Notes under the pieces: generated by a model
What the model saw: the letters and a program-made list of their open reading frames with translations, nothing else
Database searches by the model: none
Told to the model about the DNA's origin: nothing
Position numbers and translations under genes: made by a program
NCBI GenBank assembly: GCA_029211065.1
Contig: JARGFK010000023.1
Span: 1 to 51,856, forward strand
DNA length: 51,856 nucleotides
Source: Desulfobacterales bacterium
GTDB lineage: Bacteria > Desulfobacterota > Desulfobacteria > Desulfobacterales > JARGFK01
Direction: 5' to 3'
Part shown: positions 40,429-51,856 of the stretch, in pieces
Layout: the number at the start of each line of letters is the position of its first letter
Numbering within the stretch: the stretch's first letter is position 1

Positions 40429-41301
40429 CTACTTATTGACCCTGACCGGCATCACAAACGCCCGGTCGCTTTTTTTCTGATGATGAATTTCTCCGGTATA
40501 CAGCATGACGGTATAGGCCCGGGCGGAGGGAGGGTCGGGCCTGATTGTCGGGCCGCCGGAAACCGCAAACTCGCTTTGGGACCAGTAAGGCATATGAATG
40601 ATGATGTTTTCAAAGGGATTCGGCTCCACCAGGGCGGGCGCCTGCCGCTCGGTCTCGATGAGTGTTTTCCATTCATCAACAGATGAAAGCCGCCAGTCGG
40701 TATGGCCGCCCAAGTTGAAATTCCTGCATTTTTCCATTGCTTCCGACCATGTCAAGGCCGACACAAAATCCAGCCGCCAGCCGTTTTTAACCCACATCAA
40801 ACCCGTTTGGGTGTCGGTCACCGTCCCGTTCTGATTGTCAACAAATCGAGGAGTTGTCGGTTTCGATGCCGGGGGCTGCTCCGTCGGGGGTAAAGGCTTT
40901 TCAATGGACAGTTCCGGCGGCTTCAGGGACGCTACACTCTCCTTGAATTCATAAACGCCGAAATAACTCACCGCCCCTTCCTGGTTTAATTTTTCCCAGA
41001 AGCGGACCGCCGCTTCCCGGGTGGCGTATTTCCCCAGAAAAACCCGGTAAAAAATCCCCTTACCGGGGATATCGACCTCTTTCCAAAAAACCAGTTTCCC
41101 TTTTTCCTGGAGCGAATTCACATGCCGGTTGGCGTTCTGCAGGTATTTAAAAGAAGCCAGGTGGATACTGTAATAGCGCTCCCCGGCGCCCTCAGCCAGG
41201 CCCCCTGTTGCCGGCATCACTAAAGCAACCAAAACGCCAAACCTGAACAGGCTCATCCGAATCACCTTCGATACTGAATATTCTTTTATCTTTATCCGCA
41301 T
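40429..41301 (-). CDS. Exported SPOR-domain / DUF1566 protein
   Basis: 290 residues. A signal-like segment (about 15-37) is followed by a SPOR domain (about 43-115, YYSIHLASFKYLQNANRHVNSL...FYRVFLGKYATREAA), which binds denuded septal peptidoglycan, a Pro-rich linker (about 128-150) and a C-terminal DUF1566 (Lcl-like) domain: FVDNQNGTVTDTQTGLMWV, HTDWRLSSVDEWKTL and a final MPVRV. The same DUF1566 module ends the pseudo-caspase protein at 47359. Likely periplasmic or envelope-attached. It opens the signalling island on the minus strand; function unknown. Confidence 0.82.
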   Translation of the reverse strand: MRIKIKEYSVSKVIRMSLFRFGVLVALVMPATGGLAEGAGERYYSIHLASFKYLQNANRHVNSLQEKGKLVFWKEVDIPGKGIFYRVFLGKYATREAAVRFWEKLNQEGAVSYFGVYEFKESVASLKPPELSIEKPLPPTEQPPASKPTTPRFVDNQNGTVTDTQTGLMWVKNGWRLDFVSALTWSEAMEKCRNFNLGGHTDWRLSSVDEWKTLIETERQAPALVEPNPFENIIIHMPYWSQSEFAVSGGPTIRPDPPSARAYTVMLYTGEIHHQKKSDRAFVMPVRVNK

Positions 41302-41662
41302 GTTTCCGCTCCTATGTTATTATCTGAATTTTGCGCGAGCGGGAGAATTTAAGCGCGCCCGCATGTCCACCCTTCCGTCAGCACCTTTCCAGCCAGTCAA
41401 GCCGTCTTACGGAGGGCCACCTTTGCTGGTTGAAGTGATTTTAGCACAAACAGTACGCCTTGGCAAAGTCCGGCGGCAATACGGCCGGAGCCCGCCGGTC
41501 ATTGCCTCGTCGGGCTTAACCGGGTCATCGATGGGGGCCTGAGGCCTGCTGCTAAGACCAGCTGCCGGATATGCGTTTTATTTTTCCATTGACACAACAG
41601 CAACAATTCTATATCTAACTTTGTATTTACTGTCGATTGACCTATTACTCCATGAGGTGGCT
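41302..41662. other. Intergenic region with promoter for the cyclase-FHA gene
   Basis: 361 bases between divergent genes. An 80-codon open frame at 41300-41542 lacks protein-like composition and was not accepted. The right end carries a sigma70-like promoter (41589-41617). The GC-rich centre has no structure I could assign to a known riboswitch. Confidence 0.5.
41589..41617 (+). promoter_or_regulatory. Sigma70-like promoter of the cyclase-FHA gene
   Basis: TTGACA (41589-41594), 17 nt, TATCTA (41612-41617). The expected start of transcription is about 40 nt before the ATG at 41663, which has GAGGTGG in front. Confidence 0.6.
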
Positions 41663-42562
41663 ATGCCTCGCGAAACCGCTACCCTTGCCATTTTATTTGC
41701 AGACATTGCAAAAAGCACCCATCTTTACGAAACGCTGGGTAACGCCACAGCCCAACATCTCATCGGCGCCTGTCTTTCGCGCATGGCGGACGTGACCAAA
41801 AAGCACAAGGGTGTCGTCATCAAAACCATCGGTGATGAAATCATGTCGACATTTCCCAGCGCCACGGATGCCATCGCTGCCGGAAAGGAAATGCACCAGT
41901 CCATTGAACAGATGACCTTGCCTGATCAACCCGCCTTTTCTCCTCCCAATATTTACGTCGGTATTCAGATCGGATCGGTGGTTAAAGAGGAGGGGGATGT
42001 CTTTGGAGACGCCGTCAATGTCGCCGCTCGAATGGTGGCGCTGGCCAAGCAACGGCAGATTCTAACGACCGAAGAAACGATAAACGCACTTTCAGCGGAT
42101 TTGCGCGAATCCGCCCATTGCATTGACAGGACCACCATCAAAGGCAAAAGCGGAGAAGTTAATATCTACGAAATCATCTGGGAACAGCATGATGTGACGG
42201 TCATGCTGGACGGCTCTTTAGAAGCGCTTGCCATTCGGTCCCGGCTGGAACTGTCCTTTGCCGGAAGCACCATGGATGTCGATATCGACCGCCCCAGTGC
42301 CACCCTTGGACGACAAGCGCACAACGATATCGTGGTCAATGACAATCGCGTCTCAAGATCTCATGCCCGCATTGAATATCGCCGCGGCAAATTTGTTCTG
42401 ATCGATCAAAGCTCAAACGGAACGTTTGTCTTGATCCAGGGCAAAAAAAGTATCCAGATAAAACGCGACGAAACACCGTTGCTGGGAAACGGCGTGATTG
42501 GCCTGGGTCGCGACGTGACCCTTGATTCGGACATGGCGGTGCACTTTTCCATCAAATTCTAA
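41663..42562 (+). CDS. Class III nucleotidyl cyclase with C-terminal FHA domain
   Basis: 299 residues. The cyclase domain (about 5-170) has both metal Asp residues (D14 in FADIAKST, D58 in KTIGDE), the adenine-reading Lys54 and Asp112 in GDVFGDAVNVAARM, and transition-state Asn119/Arg123, so it should be an active adenylate cyclase. The FHA domain (about 200-299) has GR (216-217), SRSHA (231-235) and SNGTF (251-255), the phosphothreonine-binding set. FHA binding to a kinase target could switch or localise cAMP production. ATG 41663 is chosen for GAGGTGG just upstream. First plus-strand gene of the signalling island. Confidence 0.9.
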   Translation: MPRETATLAILFADIAKSTHLYETLGNATAQHLIGACLSRMADVTKKHKGVVIKTIGDEIMSTFPSATDAIAAGKEMHQSIEQMTLPDQPAFSPPNIYVGIQIGSVVKEEGDVFGDAVNVAARMVALAKQRQILTTEETINALSADLRESAHCIDRTTIKGKSGEVNIYEIIWEQHDVTVMLDGSLEALAIRSRLELSFAGSTMDVDIDRPSATLGRQAHNDIVVNDNRVSRSHARIEYRRGKFVLIDQSSNGTFVLIQGKKSIQIKRDETPLLGNGVIGLGRDVTLDSDMAVHFSIKF

Positions 42563-42599
42563 GAGACCTTAAAAATGCTCAATTTAGTTCAACCCCATG

Positions 42600-42634
42600 A
42601 AAGTGGATCCCGCCGCGGCGGGATTAAACTTTGA
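42600..42634. repeat. REP-like perfect palindrome
   Basis: An 18-bp perfect palindrome ATCCCGCCGCGGCGGGAT (42608-42625) flanked by complementary AAAGT and ACTTT. Lies in the 206-bp gap between the cyclase-FHA and VWA-FHA genes. It lacks a T-run but could stop or stabilise transcripts. Confidence 0.7.
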
Positions 42635-42768
42635 AACCGGCCCTGGTACTATACCCGGCATTTCATATAGGGCAGCGTCCGAAATTGGACAAAAGAGGTC
42701 GTATTAATAATGGTATCGGAAAGGGCATCGGGCGGGCAGCCTGTTAAGTAATAAGGGGAATTTTATTC

Positions 42769-44697
42769 GTGAAACCAAAAAGATCAAAATTTAATTTCCC
42801 ATTCGGCTTTATGGTTGTTATTGCAGCCGTTGTGTTGCCCGCGGCAAGCGTCCCGGGACAGCCGGTTGAACAGGTAACCATCAATTATATTGAGGCTGCT
42901 GCCGTTGCCGATCAATATGCAAATGAAGTCCGCGCTTACATCACGGTTACGGCAACAGGCCAAAAACCGATCAGCAATCTGGCCCCCTCGGATTTTAAAG
43001 CGCTCGAGGACGGTCAGTCCGTGACCATTAAGAAAGTAGCCCCCACCGCCGATCCCATGTCCGTTGTGCTGGCCATTGATACCAGCGGCAGCATGCAGGC
43101 GCGTGATACCGCCGGCCAGACCTCAATGGAAGCGGCCAGGAAAGCCGCTGCCGATTTTATCGCGATGCTTTCTGCCGATGACCGTCTGGCGCTTTTCAGT
43201 TTTAACAGGGACCCCCGGCTCCACTCCGATTTCAGTTCCGATCATGACGCCGTAATTTCAGCCGTTAAAGGACTTGAGGCCAAACCGAATGCCTATACCT
43301 GCCTTTACGATACCGCTTTTGAAGCCGTCAAAAAGGCCGCGGAAATTCCCAGGGGCCGACGGGCCGTTATTCTGCTCACCGACGGAAAAGACGAGCGCGG
43401 CGACGGGCCCTGCAGTACGCATAACGTCACCGATGTCATCGATCTGGCTACCACCAAAACAATCCGGGTCCCGATCTACACGATCGGTGTCGGGCCGAAA
43501 GTCGACGCCAAGGAATTGGGACGTATCGCCAATTTGACCGGCGGCCGCAGTTTGCTGGCCGCCTCGCTGGAGCAGTTGCAAGGCTTCTATCAAACGCTGG
43601 CCGATCAGCTGAAAAACCAGTACCTGCTGACATACAACTCCCAGACTCCCAGCGGTGAACATTCACTGGTAATAAAGGTTCAGCACCAGGGCCGGCAGAG
43701 TCAGGACGAAAAGCGGTTCTGGGTTCCGCCCCTGCCGGTCCTCCAGCCGCCGTCAGTGAATTTCGCCGATATTACGCCCAGTGATCAATCCGCCGATATC
43801 CTGAAGGTGAAAGTAAACATTGTACCGGAGCAAACCACCGCAAAGCTCCGTTATTATGTTGATGGCGCCCTGAAAGGGGAAATTACGTCCCCGCCGTTTG
43901 ACACATTCGATTGGCCTACCGCAGAACTGTCCGCCGGATTGCATGTTCTTCGGGTGGAGATAATCGACATCAAGGGACAGAGCGGGATCACCGAAATGAC
44001 CCGGGAGGTGGCGGCGGCGCCAATTTCCCCGGTGCTGCCGCCGGATTCAACCGCGCAAAAAGAAGGACCTGCCGGCGGATTTATCGTTCAACTGGCAGCA
44101 TTAACGGCATTGCTCCTTGCAGCGGCCGGGGGCGTCTTCTGGTGGTTTCGCCGACGGCAAAAAGGCGCTGCAGCGGCCGTGCAAATGCTTGCCCGGACCG
44201 ATTGTCCCGAACCGCACGGGAAAATCGCGCGGGATATTGAGGATGAAACCGTATTTTGGGGGAATGCCGAGAATGCAGATAAAGTCGGTGCAGTCGCGGA
44301 AATAGCGGTTCCGGCGGCCACCCTGACGGTTGTTGAAAATCAAGGTCTGGATAAAGGAAAAACTTTTGAGCTGACCGGCGCCATATCGATTGGACGCGGC
44401 GATGACAACGATATCGCCATCCCGGACAAGGCCATATCCAGAAGGCATGCTGAAATTTATTTAGACGCCAACCGGTTTTTTATTCGGGATTTGGGCAGTA
44501 AATACGGAACTCAGATCAATGGACGCGACATTGCTGCCGGCCGTGAACCGATTGCCGATGGAGACCGGATACAGTTGGGTCCCCGAACAGTTCTAAAATT
44601 TAATGTTTCAGCTCCGCCGGAAGCGGTCGACAATACCAAAACCAAAAGTTATGACCTGGGCATCGATGAAAAGACCCAGGTTGTTGATCCGGACTGA
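42769..44697 (+). CDS. Membrane VWA-FHA protein
   Basis: 642 residues. Signal-like N-terminus (about 11-30); VWA domain (about 95-285) with an intact MIDAS (D104-T-S-G-S108, TDGKDE at 204-209); an Ig-like segment (about 325-415); one membrane helix (438-460, followed by RRRQK); then a C-terminal FHA domain (about 518-612: GRGDDND, SRRHAE, LGSKYGT). Inferred topology is VWA outside and FHA inside, so it could couple an outer ligand to kinase signalling. The tail (GIDEKTQVVDPD) and EDETVF after the helix look like FHA-ligand threonine sites. Start GTG 42769 with AAGGGGA upstream. Followed 17 nt later by a PP2C gene. Confidence 0.88.
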   Translation: MKPKRSKFNFPFGFMVVIAAVVLPAASVPGQPVEQVTINYIEAAAVADQYANEVRAYITVTATGQKPISNLAPSDFKALEDGQSVTIKKVAPTADPMSVVLAIDTSGSMQARDTAGQTSMEAARKAAADFIAMLSADDRLALFSFNRDPRLHSDFSSDHDAVISAVKGLEAKPNAYTCLYDTAFEAVKKAAEIPRGRRAVILLTDGKDERGDGPCSTHNVTDVIDLATTKTIRVPIYTIGVGPKVDAKELGRIANLTGGRSLLAASLEQLQGFYQTLADQLKNQYLLTYNSQTPSGEHSLVIKVQHQGRQSQDEKRFWVPPLPVLQPPSVNFADITPSDQSADILKVKVNIVPEQTTAKLRYYVDGALKGEITSPPFDTFDWPTAELSAGLHVLRVEIIDIKGQSGITEMTREVAAAPISPVLPPDSTAQKEGPAGGFIVQLAALTALLLAAAGGVFWWFRRRQKGAAAAVQMLARTDCPEPHGKIARDIEDETVFWGNAENADKVGAVAEIAVPAATLTVVENQGLDKGKTFELTGAISIGRGDDNDIAIPDKAISRRHAEIYLDANRFFIRDLGSKYGTQINGRDIAAGREPIADGDRIQLGPRTVLKFNVSAPPEAVDNTKTKSYDLGIDEKTQVVDPD

Positions 44698-44714
44698 ACC
44701 ATAGGGCAAACGAA

Positions 44715-45506
44715 ATGAAAACAACCGAGCGCGTTCATATGAAGGTTAACATGCCGCACATTCATGCCAGCGGCATCTCGGATCCCGGTCGCTCCCGGGG
44801 GGACAATCAAGACCATATCCTTATTGATGAATCCGGTCATTTTATGCTGCTGGCGGATGGAATGGGGGGGCATGAACGCGGTGCCGAAGCCAGCAAAACC
44901 GCCATCGGGGTCTTGAAGGAGCGTCTACACCCGGACATTTTATTGCAGGAACTCGCCGATATCACGGATGCCGAAGGAATCCCCACGGAAGTGATATGTC
45001 TTTCCGCCATTGTCGAAGATGCAGTCAAAGAAGCCAATCAACTGCTCTATGAGCGCAATGTAAAATACAACCTGAAGCGGTTCATGGGGACGACGATTGT
45101 GGGTCTGGTTCCGGTCAAAGAGGATTTCATGCTGTGGTTTCACGTGGGAGACAGCCGCCTGTATCGCTGGCGGGTCGGCAATCTCAAGCAGCTGACAACC
45201 GATCACTCCGCTCTTGCACAATGGGAAAAAAGCGGCCGACAGGGCGCCGAGCCGGCCAAGCATGTTATTACCCGGGCCATCGGACCCAATAAAATGGCAT
45301 CGGCGGACATCTCCTGGGAGAAATGGCAGGCGGGCGATGTTTACCTTCTGTGCAGTGACGGCCTCACGGATATGCTGACTGATAAAAACATTTTAAAAAT
45401 TCTGACCGATCTCCATGAGGTCGACCAGATTGCCACGCATCTGGTTGATGCCGCCAACGCGGCCGGCGGCAAGGATAATGTCAGCGTGGTGGTGTGCCGG
45501 GTCTAA
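44715..45506 (+). CDS. PP2C-family Ser/Thr protein phosphatase (first)
   Basis: 263 residues. All PP2C metal motifs are present: RGDNQDH, LADGMGGHERGAEAS, HVGDSRLYRW, CSDGLTDML and GGKDNVSVVV. It dephosphorylates Ser/Thr phosphoproteins with Mn or Mg and should oppose the kinase at 50881. Starts 17 nt after the VWA-FHA gene, so probably one unit with it. ATG 44715 is used; ATG 44739 is possible. No extra domains. Confidence 0.92.
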   Translation: MKTTERVHMKVNMPHIHASGISDPGRSRGDNQDHILIDESGHFMLLADGMGGHERGAEASKTAIGVLKERLHPDILLQELADITDAEGIPTEVICLSAIVEDAVKEANQLLYERNVKYNLKRFMGTTIVGLVPVKEDFMLWFHVGDSRLYRWRVGNLKQLTTDHSALAQWEKSGRQGAEPAKHVITRAIGPNKMASADISWEKWQAGDVYLLCSDGLTDMLTDKNILKILTDLHEVDQIATHLVDAANAAGGKDNVSVVVCRV

Positions 45507-45566
45507 AAATAAATTTTCCCATAAGCCTCTTTTTTTTACTCCCCGAGACCTATAGAGAACGCCCCA

Positions 45567-47141
45567 TTATCTGACCCTTTTGATAATATACGCTTCCAGA
45601 TCGGGTTCTTTGTCCGGATGTTTGGTCCTTATCATCTTTGGCAGGACTTCCACCATCTGGTAAACACGTTCATATACGGACTTGCTGATGATGATCTCGC
45701 CCGGATCTGCGCCGTCACAAAGGCGGGCGGCCATATTGACGGTATCCCCGATGACGGTGTACTCCATGCGTTTGGCGGATCCGATAAACCCATGGATGAC
45801 TTCGCCGGAGTGAATGCTGATACCCACTTGGAAAACGGGCAGGCGTCGAACCTTTCTGCCTTCACATAGTTTTTCGATGGCCTGTTGCATTTCCATAGCT
45901 GCCCGCATCGCCTTTTCCCATTGGCGGTCGTCGTGGTCCGGGCTGCCGAAAACCGCCAGGACCGAATCACCAACGTATTTATCAACGACGCCGTCGTACT
46001 CAAATATGATCGGAACAAAAGCGTCAAACATCTCGTTGAGCATGCGGACAACATCGTCCGGGTCCATTTGGGCGCTCAGGGATGTGAAATTCCGGACGTC
46101 CGTCACAAGGATCGTCACCGGATCGACCCTTTCGCCGCCGCCGCGCATGCCGCCGTATTTGTCCATCACCCGCTTGGCGCTTTCCGATGAAAATTGCCGC
46201 ATCAGATTGTTCTGGGCCGCTTCTTTGCGTCTGAGATCTTCACGCAAGACATGATCCCTTAAAAATACGGATACCTGGCCGGCTATGGCCCTGAGCAATT
46301 CCAGATCGGCAGGGCAAAAGGCTTCCCGGCTCAAATAGTTGTCCACATAGATGACACCCAGCGCCTGCTCGCCGATTGTCAGTGGCACATATATGGCCGC
46401 CTGGACTTTGAAGTAAACAGCGCTGTGCGGGGAGGCCGGTCCGGTTTTAGCTTCCGACGGCGCAGCCCAGATAAAGGCTTCGCGATTCGCAAAGGCCCGC
46501 TTGGACAAGGTCGTACTGACGGAATGGTCCCCCGCCGGCCAGTGTGCCTTAAGGAGCAGTTCCCCGCGCGAATCCGGCATTAAGATGGCGCCGCGCTGGG
46601 CGCAGGGCATCGCCTGCTTAAGCTGATCAACCAGAACTTTATCCAGCATATCGATGGTGCCGGCCTTGCCAATGCTTTGGCAAAGATCGTTAAACGCTTT
46701 CAGCTTTCGCCATTCCTGGGCCGGCATCCCAAAGGCGTCCCCCCGCTCGGTCTTTGTAATCGACATCATTACATCATCGGTATTGATGATGGTCCCTTCC
46801 AGCTCCTCCTGATCCACGGTTGCTGCCGCAACGGGAGCCGCCTCCATCTGGACGGTCATAACCGTTTCCCCGATCTGCAGTATTGACCGGGGAGTGAGGC
46901 GAGTTTTTTTAGAAATCGCTTTTCCGTTTACAAGGGTGCCGTTGCGACTGCCGAGATCCTCAATCCAGTATTGATCGTTCCCAAAGGTCAGGCGGGCATG
47001 CCGGTGAGACGCATATTCATCCTGCAATAAATCCAGATCAATCGACTGGCCGTCCTTTTGGCTGCGGCCGATGATGATGGTGTCTGCTCGGGATTCAAAT
47101 CGTTCGGGCGTATGAGGCGGAATGGAATAGTAAATAATCAT
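45567..47141 (-). CDS. FHA-GAF-class III adenylate/guanylate cyclase
   Basis: 524 residues. N-terminal FHA domain (about 1-98: GRSQKDG, SHRHARL, LGSRNGTLVNG), a GAF domain (about 150-300, including YVPLTIGEQALGVIYVDNYLS), a helical linker and a C-terminal class III cyclase (about 340-510: VTDVRNFTS, DKYVGDSVLAVFG, YTVIGDTVNMAARL). Metal Asp residues, Lys and Asn/Arg are all present; a Thr at the second base-reading site is common in bacterial adenylate cyclases. The domain order is the reverse of the other cyclase in the island. A threonine-rich stretch EELEGTIINTDD follows the FHA domain. Convergent with the PP2C gene and divergent from the pseudo-caspase gene. Confidence 0.92.
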   Translation of the reverse strand: MIIYYSIPPHTPERFESRADTIIIGRSQKDGQSIDLDLLQDEYASHRHARLTFGNDQYWIEDLGSRNGTLVNGKAISKKTRLTPRSILQIGETVMTVQMEAAPVAAATVDQEELEGTIINTDDVMMSITKTERGDAFGMPAQEWRKLKAFNDLCQSIGKAGTIDMLDKVLVDQLKQAMPCAQRGAILMPDSRGELLLKAHWPAGDHSVSTTLSKRAFANREAFIWAAPSEAKTGPASPHSAVYFKVQAAIYVPLTIGEQALGVIYVDNYLSREAFCPADLELLRAIAGQVSVFLRDHVLREDLRRKEAAQNNLMRQFSSESAKRVMDKYGGMRGGGERVDPVTILVTDVRNFTSLSAQMDPDDVVRMLNEMFDAFVPIIFEYDGVVDKYVGDSVLAVFGSPDHDDRQWEKAMRAAMEMQQAIEKLCEGRKVRRLPVFQVGISIHSGEVIHGFIGSAKRMEYTVIGDTVNMAARLCDGADPGEIIISKSVYERVYQMVEVLPKMIRTKHPDKEPDLEAYIIKRVR

Positions 47142-47256
47142 GGCTCACAAATGCAGATCCGTTTAAGGTTTTTGGGTGTCGGTCTGAGCCAGATGAACGG
47201 ACGCATGTTTTATAACTACAAATCTAACATGAAACCCGGTAGAATATCAATCATTT

Positions 47257-47300
47257 CTTGACAGTTGCCGATTCTCAACCTATAATTTGGAACTGTCAAG
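47257..47300 (+). promoter_or_regulatory. Consensus promoter embedded in a 10-bp inverted repeat, possibly divergent
   Basis: Plus strand: TTGACA (47258-47263), 17 nt, TATAAT (47281-47286), a perfect consensus. Arms CTTGACAGTT (47257-47266) and AACTGTCAAG (47291-47300) are exact complements; the right arm supplies TTGACA on the minus strand, 17 nt before GAGAAT. The region sits between the FHA-GAF-cyclase and pseudo-caspase genes, so it may drive both and bind a dimeric regulator. Confidence 0.8.
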
Positions 47301-47358
47301 ACAGTGCAATTAAATCGCCCGGATTTACTTAAAACCCCCTTTTGACGGACAGTAGTTA

Positions 47359-50067
47359 TTGATGACTGTTTCTAAATCAATCGCTATAATACTCGCCGGC
47401 CTTGTCGTTTTTTTCTGGGCAGGTTTTGCCGCAAAAGGAATATCTGCGGTCGCAGATAAAAATGTGGCTGATAGCGGCACCAATCATGCACTGATCATCG
47501 GTATCAACAAGTACGATGCCTGGCCCGAACTGAAAAGCCCCGTCAAAGATGCTGAAGCAATAGCCAAAGTTCTCACCGAAAAATATGATTTTAAAAAATC
47601 AAACATCGTCCTGCTGACCGATACCACCAAAGAAAAACCCGACCTGGTCAACATTTTGACCTACCTGGACAAGTTTGCGACAGGGTTGACCGAAAAAGAC
47701 AATCTGTTGATCCTCTTTTTCGGCCACAGCAAAGAAGACGACCAGGGCGAAACCTACTGGATTCCCAAAAACGGCAAAGAAACGTCCAAAATGACCTGGA
47801 TCAATCATGCGGCCGTATCCGAAGAAGTATTCGCTTCCGACAAGTTCAAGGCTAAAAACCTGTGCGTCATTACCGACTCTCCCTTCTCAAGCAAGCTCTT
47901 CAGACCCCGGGCCACGACCGTTTCACCATTTGACCTGCGCTACACCGAAAAAGTTTTGGAATTGGCCGGCCGGCGCTCACGAGAACTCATTGCCTTCGGC
48001 GACCAGCATTGGCCCGGCAGCAAGAATACCGACGATCTGGGTCTGTTCGCCTATTCCATCCGCAAGGCGCTGCTGGACAATACTTTCGATGTGCTCGATT
48101 TTGAAAACCTGATTTTTGATGAAAATATCATTTTTCAAATATCCAAAATTGCCGGCACCAAAATTGCGCGGGGCCGATTCAGAACCGACGTTGATCAGCG
48201 CGGCCAGTTTGTCATCAATAAACTCTCCGTGGTTCCGGCAGTTGAGATTGTCGCCGCCGAAGTCAGCCCGGACAAGGGGTATCCCGGCGACACCTTCCTG
48301 GTAAAAGCCAAAACCAGCGCCCCGGCATCCGAAGTCCTGATCGATATCGATGGACAGAAACACCGCATGAAAGGCGCCGGCACGGAATGGACCTACAGCG
48401 CAACCGCCGAAAAAACAGGGAAAACCGCATACAAAATCGCCGCGTTGAATGAAAGAGAGATCAGCGGCAAACCCCGCCCGGGTGAGTTTACCATCATCCC
48501 GAGACGAGCGGAAGTCGCCAATATTGAAGCGTTGACAGTGGAACCCCAACGGGGCGTCGAAGGCGAAAATTTCAAGTTTAGCGCCAGAACGGACCAGCCG
48601 GCGGATACGGTTGAAATACTCATCAAGGGCAACCGCTATAAAATGCAGGGTTCCGGTACGAACTGGTCTCTGACCAGGGCCCTTGAAGACACCGGCAGCG
48701 TTGACTTTTCAGTTGCCGCACTAAACAAAGACGGCGTCAAGGGGCGCGCCAAAGAAGGCAACCTTGTCGTCAAGGCAGCCGCGGTGAACATCGTCCAGGT
48801 GGAGACCACCCCCCGGGAGGGATATGCCGGCGAAGAATTTACCATCACGGCCAGGACCAACCGCTCGGCAAATACCGTCGCCATTCAGATCGACGGTCAG
48901 GAATTTCCCATGGAAGGCGCCGGGAATACTTGGCGCTTTAAAAAGACCATTGCGGATATCGGCAAAAAACAGTTTACCGTTATTGCCAAAAATACGGACG
49001 GCGCAACCGGGCAATCCCGCGGCGGTGATTTGCTGACGAAGCGAAGCCCGCTGCCCATCCCCAATGTTGCGGCGGTTGATGTGAATGTCGTCAGCCCCGG
49101 CAAGGGATATTCCGGCGACAGCTTTGAGATAAATGCCAAAACCACCGCACCATCCGAGTCCGTATTTATCGCCATTGAGGGCGATGTCTATCAAATGACG
49201 GGCTCCGGAATCGACTGGAAATACGTTGCCAAGATAGACAAGCTGGGGGAAAACAAATACCGGGTCGGCGCAAAAAACAAGGACGGCGCCCAGGGCCAGT
49301 CCCGTGAAGGCATTATCACCACCACCAAGAAACCACTGGAACCGGTCAATGTCCTTGCCGCCCAGGTGAATCCGCCCAAAGGCTATGCCGGCAAGGAGTT
49401 TACCTTTACAGCCAGCACCGACAAGCCGGCCAAGGGGGTTTCGCTTTTAATCGGCCGCGACCGTTATGACATGACCGGTTCCGGCACCAGCTGGCGCTTT
49501 ACTAAAAAGTTGGATATTACCGGCGACATCAATTTTTCAGTGGCGGCCCGCAATGCCGATGATGCCGAGGGGATAGTAAAGACGGCATCGCTTTCCATCG
49601 AAGAAGAACCCAAAGGATTTGCTTACATCGGCGATGGAAAAGTCAAGGACCGCAAAACCGGAAAAGTGCTCGCCCGCTTTGTGGAAAACGGCGACGGCAC
49701 CGTTACGGATCGGGTCACCAGTCTGATGTGGCTGCAAACCCCCAAAACCATCGCCGTGTCCTGGGACGATGCCAATGAATTTTGCCGGACGCTTGAAGTC
49801 AAAGGCTACGCAGGCTGGCGACTCCCCACCATAGAGGAATTAAGAGTCCTGGTGGACACGAAGAAACAGAACCCGGCCCTGCCCACGGGACATCCCTTTA
49901 CGAACGTATTGACCCATGTGGGATACTGGTCCAAGACCAAACATAAGTTCGGACCGCAATATGTCTTCCAGATGAACCTGTGGTACGGCAAAGACGGCTA
50001 TGTTAAAAAAGAAGAAAACTCCATCGTTTGGCCGGTCCGGTATGCCGAAGAGCTGAATAAGGGATAA
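47359..50067 (+). CDS. Caspase-fold protein with lost catalytic Cys, five Ig-like repeats and DUF1566
   Basis: 902 residues. Signal or anchor helix (about 7-27); caspase-like C14 domain (about 40-285) with NHALIIGINKYDAW, KDAEAIAKVL and LFFGHS (H123), but the usual D-x-C-x-S turn reads TDSPFSS, with Pro175 in place of the nucleophile Cys. Five repeats of about 92 residues follow (about 292-765), each with a (K/E)GY-x-G start and a M-x-G-(S/A)-G-x-x-W centre, then a DUF1566 domain (about 785-900: FVENGDGTVTDRVTSLMWL, YAGWRLPTIEELRVL, VWPVRY). Likely a secreted or membrane-anchored binding protein rather than a protease. First gene of a unit with PP2C and kinase. Confidence 0.85.
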   Translation: MMTVSKSIAIILAGLVVFFWAGFAAKGISAVADKNVADSGTNHALIIGINKYDAWPELKSPVKDAEAIAKVLTEKYDFKKSNIVLLTDTTKEKPDLVNILTYLDKFATGLTEKDNLLILFFGHSKEDDQGETYWIPKNGKETSKMTWINHAAVSEEVFASDKFKAKNLCVITDSPFSSKLFRPRATTVSPFDLRYTEKVLELAGRRSRELIAFGDQHWPGSKNTDDLGLFAYSIRKALLDNTFDVLDFENLIFDENIIFQISKIAGTKIARGRFRTDVDQRGQFVINKLSVVPAVEIVAAEVSPDKGYPGDTFLVKAKTSAPASEVLIDIDGQKHRMKGAGTEWTYSATAEKTGKTAYKIAALNEREISGKPRPGEFTIIPRRAEVANIEALTVEPQRGVEGENFKFSARTDQPADTVEILIKGNRYKMQGSGTNWSLTRALEDTGSVDFSVAALNKDGVKGRAKEGNLVVKAAAVNIVQVETTPREGYAGEEFTITARTNRSANTVAIQIDGQEFPMEGAGNTWRFKKTIADIGKKQFTVIAKNTDGATGQSRGGDLLTKRSPLPIPNVAAVDVNVVSPGKGYSGDSFEINAKTTAPSESVFIAIEGDVYQMTGSGIDWKYVAKIDKLGENKYRVGAKNKDGAQGQSREGIITTTKKPLEPVNVLAAQVNPPKGYAGKEFTFTASTDKPAKGVSLLIGRDRYDMTGSGTSWRFTKKLDITGDINFSVAARNADDAEGIVKTASLSIEEEPKGFAYIGDGKVKDRKTGKVLARFVENGDGTVTDRVTSLMWLQTPKTIAVSWDDANEFCRTLEVKGYAGWRLPTIEELRVLVDTKKQNPALPTGHPFTNVLTHVGYWSKTKHKFGPQYVFQMNLWYGKDGYVKKEENSIVWPVRYAEELNKG

Positions 50068-50073
50068 AGACAG

Positions 50074-50877
50074 ATGAGCCAAATTACCATCGGAGCGGCT
50101 TCCGATCCCGGAAGGAAGCGAAAAGAAAATCAGGACTCCCATGCGTTTTTCTGCCCCCCGGAGGGCACCGCCCACAAAAAAGGAATTTTACTGGCATTGG
50201 CCGACGGCATGGGGGGTCATGCCGGCGGGTCCATTGCCTCCAAATTAGCAATCGACACGCTCATTCAGACCTATTATGACGACACCGGCGCCGGCATCCC
50301 GGAATCCCTTGAAAAGTCAGTTCAGGCGGCCAATCAAAAAGTTCTGGAGAAAAGCCGGAGCGACCCTGACGTACAGGGGCTGGGTTCCACCCTGACGGCG
50401 GTTGTTTTCCAGGGATCCGACATGTACCATGCCCACGTCGGCGACAGTCGGGGATATTCCATTTTCGCCAATCAGATCACCCAGTTTACCGAAGACCATT
50501 CTTACGTTGCCAGCCTGGTTAAGGCCGGCGTCATCAGCGCGGAAGAAGCCCTGACGCATCCCGAAGGAAACATCATCACCCGGGCGATCGGTGTTCAGGA
50601 AGACTTGAAGGTGGACACCTCCCCGACGCCCGCAAGAATCCATAAGGATCAATTTGTCCTGCTGTGCTGCGACGGCCTCTATAAAGAGGTTCCCGATCAG
50701 GAAATACTGGCAACCGTTTATGAGTTCAGAGACCCGGACGCTATCAGTAAAAAATTAATTGAAAAAGCCAATGAAAACGGCGGCAATGACAACATTACCG
50801 TTGTCATTGCGAGAATCGACACCGTTGAAGGTGCCCCGACCTGGCTGAACCGGTTTCTGCGCCTCCTGAGGAAATGA
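50074..50877 (+). CDS. PP2C-family Ser/Thr protein phosphatase (second)
   Basis: 267 residues with intact PP2C motifs: KRKENQDSH, LADGMGGHAGGSIAS, HVGDSRGYS, TRAIGV, CCDGLYKEV and GGNDNITVVI. A basic tail (WLNRFLRLLRK) may associate with the membrane. It lies 6 nt after the pseudo-caspase gene and 3 nt before the kinase gene, the usual phosphatase-kinase pairing. Clearly distinct from the first PP2C of the island, so it may serve a different phosphoprotein or location. Confidence 0.93.
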   Translation: MSQITIGAASDPGRKRKENQDSHAFFCPPEGTAHKKGILLALADGMGGHAGGSIASKLAIDTLIQTYYDDTGAGIPESLEKSVQAANQKVLEKSRSDPDVQGLGSTLTAVVFQGSDMYHAHVGDSRGYSIFANQITQFTEDHSYVASLVKAGVISAEEALTHPEGNIITRAIGVQEDLKVDTSPTPARIHKDQFVLLCCDGLYKEVPDQEILATVYEFRDPDAISKKLIEKANENGGNDNITVVIARIDTVEGAPTWLNRFLRLLRK

Positions 50878-50880
50878 TAC

Positions 50881-51856
50881 ATGATTAACGAAAAGATAGG
50901 GGACTATGATGTAACCAATGCCCTTGGCAAGGGCGGCTTCGGCAGCGTCTGGATGGCCACATCTTCCGAGGGCGCTACCGTTGCGCTGAAACTGCTGAAC
51001 CCCCAGGCGCTGGACAATCAAAAGGTCGTCAAGAAATTTTTCCACGAGGCCATGATCCTGGCCAAACTCGACCATCCCAATATTACCAAGCTGCTGGAGT
51101 TTTTCCCGGACGGCGACAATTATGCCATCGTCATGGAATATGTGGAAGGGATTGAATTAAAAAAACTGCTGCAGCAGCAAAAAGGGCTGTTGCCTTTTAA
51201 TCATGCCTATAAAATCGCCATGCAGTCCCTGGATGCCTTTCAATATGCCCACGAGCACGGCATCCTGCACCGGGATATCAAGCCCGCCAATATCATGATC
51301 AATAAAAACGGCGACGCCAAAATCATGGATTTCGGCATTGCCAAAATGGGCACCACCGCATCCCATGATACGGCCGCCAGCATGCTATCGGTTCACTACA
51401 CGCCGCCGGAACGGTTCGACAAATCCAGAGAAATCGATCAGCGTTCGGACATTTACTCCCTGGGCCTGGTGTTCTATGAAATGTTTGCCGGCCGCAGGGC
51501 CTTTTCCGCCACGGAAACGTCCCAAATCATGTTTTCGCACCTCAATGAGATCCCTGAGCCGCCATCCAAGTACGCGCCGAACCTGCCGCCGCAGATCAGC
51601 AAGGCTATCTTCAAGGCCCTGGAAAAGGACCCTGAAGACCGTTTTCCTGATTTTAAAGCTTTCAAACAGGCCATTCAGGTGGACCAGGCCGAAATTGATG
51701 ATGCCACCAGCATGGTGGATCTGGAAGCCACCATGGCCGATGCCACCATTGACGTGGGCGCTGCTGGCCTGCCGCCCCCGAAAACAGCTCAAGCCCCGGC
51801 GGAAGAAAAAAAGAAAACACCCACGGCCATGCTGGCCGCCGTCATTGCGTTGGTTT
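50881..51856 (+). CDS. Ser/Thr protein kinase (Hanks type), cut by window end
   Basis: First 325 residues; the gene runs off the right edge. Kinase domain (about 7-265): glycine loop LGKGGFGSV, Lys37 in VALKLL, Glu56, catalytic loop LHRDIKPANIM (H130-R-D132), D150FG and PPERF, so it should be active and is of the RD type. After the domain comes an acidic threonine-rich segment (DDATSMVDLEATMADATID, 273-291), a Pro/Lys linker and the start of a hydrophobic stretch (MLAAVIALV) that probably becomes a membrane helix, giving the usual PknB-like topology with an outer sensor not visible here. Starts 3 nt after the PP2C gene. Confidence 0.95.
   Translation, partial: MINEKIGDYDVTNALGKGGFGSVWMATSSEGATVALKLLNPQALDNQKVVKKFFHEAMILAKLDHPNITKLLEFFPDGDNYAIVMEYVEGIELKKLLQQQKGLLPFNHAYKIAMQSLDAFQYAHEHGILHRDIKPANIMINKNGDAKIMDFGIAKMGTTASHDTAASMLSVHYTPPERFDKSREIDQRSDIYSLGLVFYEMFAGRRAFSATETSQIMFSHLNEIPEPPSKYAPNLPPQISKAIFKALEKDPEDRFPDFKAFKQAIQVDQAEIDDATSMVDLEATMADATIDVGAAGLPPPKTAQAPAEEKKKTPTAMLAAVIALV

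Follow-up and report, generated by a model that had tools for sequence, protein, structure and literature searches.

A conserved kinase, phosphatase and FHA-cyclase locus of Desulfobacterota with a possible role in envelope-to-cytoplasm signalling

In a Desulfobacterales contig we identified a locus built around six core genes, which encode a SPOR-Lcl_C (DUF1566) protein, a class III cyclase-FHA protein (Cya-FHA), a PP2C phosphatase (PP2C-a), a secreted pseudo-caspase-Ig-Lcl_C protein, a second PP2C phosphatase (PP2C-b) and a Ser/Thr kinase. This core was found again in 18 other Desulfobacterota genomes, as far as their contigs reach. Its probable function is to convert an outside signal into cAMP, and we see roughly even chances that it is a conserved envelope-to-cytoplasm signalling system in which a sensing kinase recruits FHA-cyclases and PP2C phosphatases provide the reset. 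The individual families are known; the conserved combination appears to be undescribed, as no published description of this gene set was found in the literature searched, the coverage of which was incomplete.

The window, meaning the whole stretch of DNA analysed, is one complete contig (G000:C23) of 51,856 bases, in which a murC-ftsZ cluster and a radical-SAM (rSAM) gene precede the eight genes of the island. In a domain search, all domains named here for these eight genes scored above Pfam cut-offs. The SPOR-Lcl_C protein (40429..41301, minus strand; Pfam SPOR 1.6e-9, Lcl_C 5.9e-19) has a hydrophobic segment at its N-terminus, and its orthologues, at 44-55%, are adjacent in 9 other loci. It is followed by Cya-FHA (41621..42562, plus strand; Pfam and motif alignment), a signal peptide-VWA-TM-FHA protein (VWA-FHA; 42769..44697, plus strand; Pfam), PP2C-a (44715..45506, plus strand; Pfam, orthologues at 51-60%), an FHA-GAF-class III cyclase (45567..47141, minus strand; Pfam, catalytic residues by motif alignment), the pseudo-caspase-Ig-Lcl_C protein (47359..50067, plus strand; Pfam and an AlphaFold model), PP2C-b of the Stp1/IreP family (50074..50877, plus strand; Pfam and NCBIfam Stp1) and the Hanks-type kinase (50881..51855>, plus strand; Pfam). 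VWA-FHA and the FHA-GAF-cyclase are an accessory pair. The pseudo-caspase gene is separated from PP2C-b by 6 bases, and PP2C-b from the kinase by 3 bases. Because the window is a whole contig with its 3' end inside the kinase gene, the kinase is truncated at residue 325 and its C-terminal half is absent here. A sequence-only reading of this DNA had placed two DUF1566 proteins, two PP2Cs, three FHA proteins and a caspase-fold protein correctly, and Pfam bore out its statement that two of the FHA proteins are class III cyclases with opposite domain order; the SPOR domain of the first DUF1566 protein was missing from that account. A foreign-island origin of the locus is unsupported, since base composition is ordinary (GC 53.0% in the island versus 52.3% in the remainder of the window).

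The neighbourhood of these genes is non-random: across genomes the core keeps its gene order and, for the most part, its strands. Twelve other genomes of the order have full-length relatives of the caspase-Lcl_C protein, 50-57% identical; the relative in G008 is split into two frames. Screening 84,980 species genomes added six further relatives at 41-50%, all from genomes labelled Desulfobacterota/Deltaproteobacteria MAGs. We read the neighbourhoods in the resulting 19 genomes, the window's own included, by ORF and six-frame search. The gene-neighbourhood check proposed in the sequence-only reading thus came out in its favour, as homologues across Desulfobacterota have a common neighbourhood and are not scattered. 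The usual layout is SPOR-Lcl_C/Cya-FHA/PP2C-a, with PP2C-a mostly divergent from the genes for caspase-Ig-Lcl_C, PP2C-b and kinase; the strand of PP2C-a in the window is unlike that of most relatives. Where contigs suffice, the core is complete (G111, G014, G153, G008, L097, L101, L103 and the window), and its partial state in the remaining loci is due mostly to contig ends. The caspase gene is missing from the core of G070 (L152), no SPOR-Lcl_C gene adjoins the core in G198 and G190, and at L099 only the caspase, PP2C-b and kinase operon and downstream genes are visible. Within the core, inter-gene distances are correlated, which is no proof of interaction because general relatedness and a few close pairs of genomes inflate the correlations. 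A Cya-FHA relative is present in 62 of 291 genomes of the order, in many of them without other core genes, and therefore need not depend on this kinase.

Additional genes were seen around the core. Receiver/metallo-beta-lactamase-fold, DnaJ/DUF1232 and SprT/DUF2786 proteins recur near it (L038, L071, L152), and a 299-aa ORF in L152 was rejected as a gene because it is the antisense of PP2C-a. Divergent operons of a caspase-like gene and a kinase-FGE gene (L160, L159, L082; family f67), with ~28-33% caspase identity to the window protein, are a wider family of the same idea.

The eight genes had been taken as one block. They are indeed contiguous in the window, but in relatives VWA-FHA and the FHA-GAF-cyclase are usually a separate pair elsewhere in the genome, and the window block is therefore two linked modules joined, not one ancestral block. 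Strong relatives of VWA-FHA (E up to 1e-40) occur in 11 of 291 genomes, and 10 of these 11 belong to the 13 genomes with the full core caspase protein; the hypergeometric value of 3e-15 ignores relatedness and so is no proof of interaction. VWA-FHA adjoins the FHA-GAF-cyclase in 7 other genomes (G032, G014, G008, G254, G082, G198 and G231), and in G111 and G036 it lies near the core. Behind the pair, both G254 and G082 encode a large kinase together with a PP2C and an FHA protein. The window's own genome encodes a trio of CHASE2-Ser/Thr kinase, PP2C and double-FHA protein on another contig (G000:C87; L040:8674-12967), homologous to the genes directly beside the pair in G254 and G082.

Judged by their active-site residues, the secreted "enzymes" of the locus, the caspase and the FGE domain, are dead. 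The pseudo-caspase protein consists of a caspase (C14) domain at residues 36-290, five Ig-like repeats at ~297-748 and Lcl_C at 780-894. Since a Foldseek search with the whole protein was swamped by its Ig domains, the caspase part was resolved separately: residues 40-292 of the AlphaFold model superimposed on metacaspase 4 with Z 17.9 and rmsd 3.1 over 216 aligned residues, and the predicted domain matches metacaspases and MALT1 at Z 15-18. While the caspase fold is present, the His-Cys dyad of active metacaspases and orthocaspases is not. In the motif alignment the catalytic Cys position is P, V, L, F, M or H in all orthologues and never Cys, despite ~55% identity elsewhere and the retained fold, and the His is replaced by Gln in several. 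Orthologues of ~1360 aa with extra Ig-like repeats (L097, L098, L099, L103) indicate that repeat number varies between lineages.

The second such domain is known from the orthologous kinases, as the window kinase is truncated before it. These carry a periplasmic FGE-sulfatase domain after the TM segment (PF03781, 1.6e-59 and 9.1e-53). In FGE, a CxxxxC pair of Cys after GGS is copper-binding and catalytic; in the orthologues' kinase FGE domain this pair is absent, the sequence being KGGSFIEG.ESLRS, with no Cys. An FGE fragment on contig C216 of the same genome was rejected as the missing kinase end, with 35% identity versus ~63% among orthologues. The Lcl_C fold we take to be lectin-like from general knowledge of the family, because the structure model of SPOR-Lcl_C is poor (pLDDT 50). 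We infer a binding role for the parts outside and a signalling role for those inside. The earlier description of the locus as envelope-sensing fits this anatomy, which combines a SPOR protein, a secreted caspase-Ig-Lcl_C protein and, in orthologues, a kinase with TM segment and FGE ectodomain.

In the orthologues aligned, the kinase VAxK, HRD and DFG motifs are intact, as are the metal/phosphate Asp motifs of PP2C-a and PP2C-b. PP2C-b reached 247.5 bits with the NCBIfam Stp1 model versus a cut-off of 230, and PP2C-a remained under it at 189. By motif alignment, both window cyclases keep the two metal Asp, the Lys/Asp specificity residues and Asn-Arg, and Cya-FHA is a predicted adenylate cyclase from its K/D substrate-specifying residues. 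Nearly all relatives retain the metal, specificity and Asn/Arg residues; in one Cya-FHA orthologue (L038), two catalytic positions hold E and Q, and an FHA-GAF-cyclase (L035) carries an E substitution. The Arg/Ser/His residues of the FHA domains are likewise intact by motif alignment. A Pfam search found no cNMP-binding domain among the eight island proteins; the genome as a whole has 15 cNMP-binding matches, candidates for receiving cAMP. Elsewhere in the same genome, contig C118 (L039:4981-6543) encodes an FHA-kinase fusion followed by a HAD hydrolase gene, and the catalytic domain of the fusion is 55-57% identical to the window kinase or its orthologue.

Two linkers contain conserved Thr motifs that are candidate phosphorylation sites. 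In the kinase, the stretch from the catalytic domain to the TM segment is poorly conserved save D273-D274-x-T276-xxx-D280 (D273 14/16, D274 14/16, T276 15/16, D280 14/16). Similarly, the VWA-FHA linker between TM segment and FHA domain is variable save around E493-T494-x-F496 (DET-V-F), with E493 in 10/11, T494 in 11/11 and F496 in 10/11. Thr494 is a candidate phospho-switch by analogy with GarA/OdhI; GarA is the nearest solved FHA to that of VWA-FHA (1.2e-12), with Thr494 outside the aligned part. The conserved Thr motifs support kinase-dependent FHA docking, without proving it.

We propose that non-catalytic binding modules outside the inner membrane, namely the pseudo-caspase-Ig-lectin-like protein, the SPOR-lectin-like protein and, on the kinase itself, the FGE-like ectodomain, would sense the state of the cell envelope or surface and alter the activity of the transmembrane kinase. 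The kinase would then autophosphorylate its juxtamembrane DDxT site (Thr276) and phosphorylate the VWA-FHA linker (Thr494). The FHA domains of Cya-FHA and of the accessory FHA-GAF-cyclase may dock on these phosphothreonines, and docking would localise or switch cAMP production, with PP2C-a and PP2C-b resetting the system. The cAMP would act via CRP-type receptors encoded elsewhere in the genome, and we count against this mechanism that no cAMP receptor lies within the locus. Were the wiring true, it would connect eukaryote-like Ser/Thr phosphorylation directly with bacterial cAMP, which are usually studied apart, and bacterial caspase homologues would gain a conserved function without proteolysis, serving kinase signalling as an ectodomain.

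The proposed circuit recalls several known systems. It resembles the actinobacterial PknB/PknG-GarA/OdhI/FhaA phospho-switches in having a Ser/Thr kinase with FHA proteins that would read its phosphothreonines, and it resembles GarA in the Thr motif upstream of the FHA domain, GarA and OdhI being phosphorylated by PknG at Thr21 and Thr14 (PMC8546545). However, the FHA domains here are fused to VWA-TM or cyclases instead of a metabolic-enzyme inhibitor, and the kinase ectodomain is FGE-like, not PASTA. Indeed, no PASTA ectodomain as in PknB/Stk1 kinases was found in the orthologues, and an orthologous kinase reached 275 bits with the PknB_PASTA model versus a cut-off of 450. The locus is also similar to Stp1/PrkC-type pairs, as PP2C-b exceeds the Stp1 cut-off and directly precedes the kinase, but it differs by the lack of PASTA repeats and by the extra pseudo-caspase, second PP2C and cyclase. 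Bacterial caspase homologues with the caspase fold linked to FGE/lectin-like domains, including catalytically negative members, have been reported (PMC3501461); here, in contrast, the kinase carries FGE and the caspase protein carries Lcl_C, and a whole kinase-FHA-cyclase locus is conserved alongside. Lastly, sets of kinase, PP2C and VWA genes occur together in GTPase/MoxR-centred conflict systems (Kaur et al. 2020, PMC7159879), unlike the present locus, where no GTPase/MoxR partner was seen.

A plausible target or monitored client of the circuit would be a neighbouring two-partner-secretion (TPS) system. An OmpH/Skp-like gene directly follows the kinase in all 12 loci reaching that far (L071, L072, L073, L075-L079, L098, L099, L101, L103), convergent to it in most, and a giant repetitive TpsA-like gene adjoins OmpH in most loci. 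As most contigs break off within this repetitive gene, its N-terminal TPS domain was seen directly in one relative (G008, where a ShlB-type transporter gene precedes). The window's genome also has contig C63 (L165:3-4713), which opens partway through a TpsA gene at 63% identity to the G008 TpsA; a LuxR-type regulator and TpsB come after it. Most simply, the gap between C23 and C63 would hold OmpH, the remainder of the kinase and the greater part of TpsA, although this join is hypothetical. Beyond the kinase, a 225-aa "conserved ORF" was rejected as the antisense of OmpH. The same genes allow a different explanation, in which the locus is an adhesin quality-control or expression circuit that monitors secretion of the OmpH-assisted giant protein, the lectin-like and Ig proteins touching it in transit. 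The TPS domain and ShlB of G008 and the TpsA/TpsB pair with its LuxR-type regulator on C63 favour it; however, the two transcription units converge, so that the link may be mere proximity, and G153 has other genes behind OmpH and no TPS gene in its available sequence. We regard this explanation as unlikely, and equally so the most extended form of our own proposal, a chain from dead-enzyme ectodomains (pseudo-caspase, pseudo-FGE) through the kinase, phosphothreonine-recruited FHA-cyclases and cAMP to control of the giant surface protein.

Still less probable is a checkpoint for cell division or peptidoglycan. PknB/Stp1-like kinases frequently act on the cell wall, the locus carries a SPOR domain and is positioned directly after ftsZ, and the dcw/rSAM neighbourhood recurs in part (window and G143; rSAM in G198 and G231, ftsZ also in G198). 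Yet in most relatives the locus lies elsewhere in the genome, and in some loci (G198, G190) SPOR-Lcl_C does not adjoin the core. It appears very improbable that the locus is a conflict system for defence or programmed death (Pycsar-like, VMAP/vWA-like or with a caspase effector): class III cyclases, caspase folds, VWA, PP2C and kinases are all used in such systems, but the caspase catalytic residue is lost in all orthologues, the chromosomal site is beside housekeeping genes and composition is ordinary. PADLOC returned no complete defence system, only generic single-domain matches including a generic PycC, and the neighbourhoods examined held no Pycsar effector (a cNMP-binding membrane or TIR effector gene accompanying the cyclase), MoxR, VMAP or nuclease. 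The earlier suggestion of a defence-related circuit accordingly finds no support here. That reading had also set the locus apart from the T6SS regulators PpkA/PppA/Fha, rightly so: the kinase, phosphatase and FHA triad and weak TagH matches, far below cut-off, recall that set, but the sheath gene VipB/TssC (PF05943) is absent from the genome assembly (E. coli control positive) and no T6SS genes were recognised in the neighbourhoods examined, leaving this explanation a negligible probability.

In G143 (L154:9469-10458) a Cya-FHA gene stands right after murC-ftsZ-rSAM without the other core genes, which suggests that the cyclase position beside the dcw cluster may be old. The carrier genomes also include two labelled Olavius algarvensis Delta 3 and Delta 4 symbionts, and the locus may therefore bear on the surface behaviour of uncultured sulfate-reducer relatives. 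In the Delta 4 symbiont genome the caspase-Lcl_C gene lies in two overlapping frames (L079:8952-11682), either a frameshift or an assembly error, and TpsA is likewise in two frames (L083).
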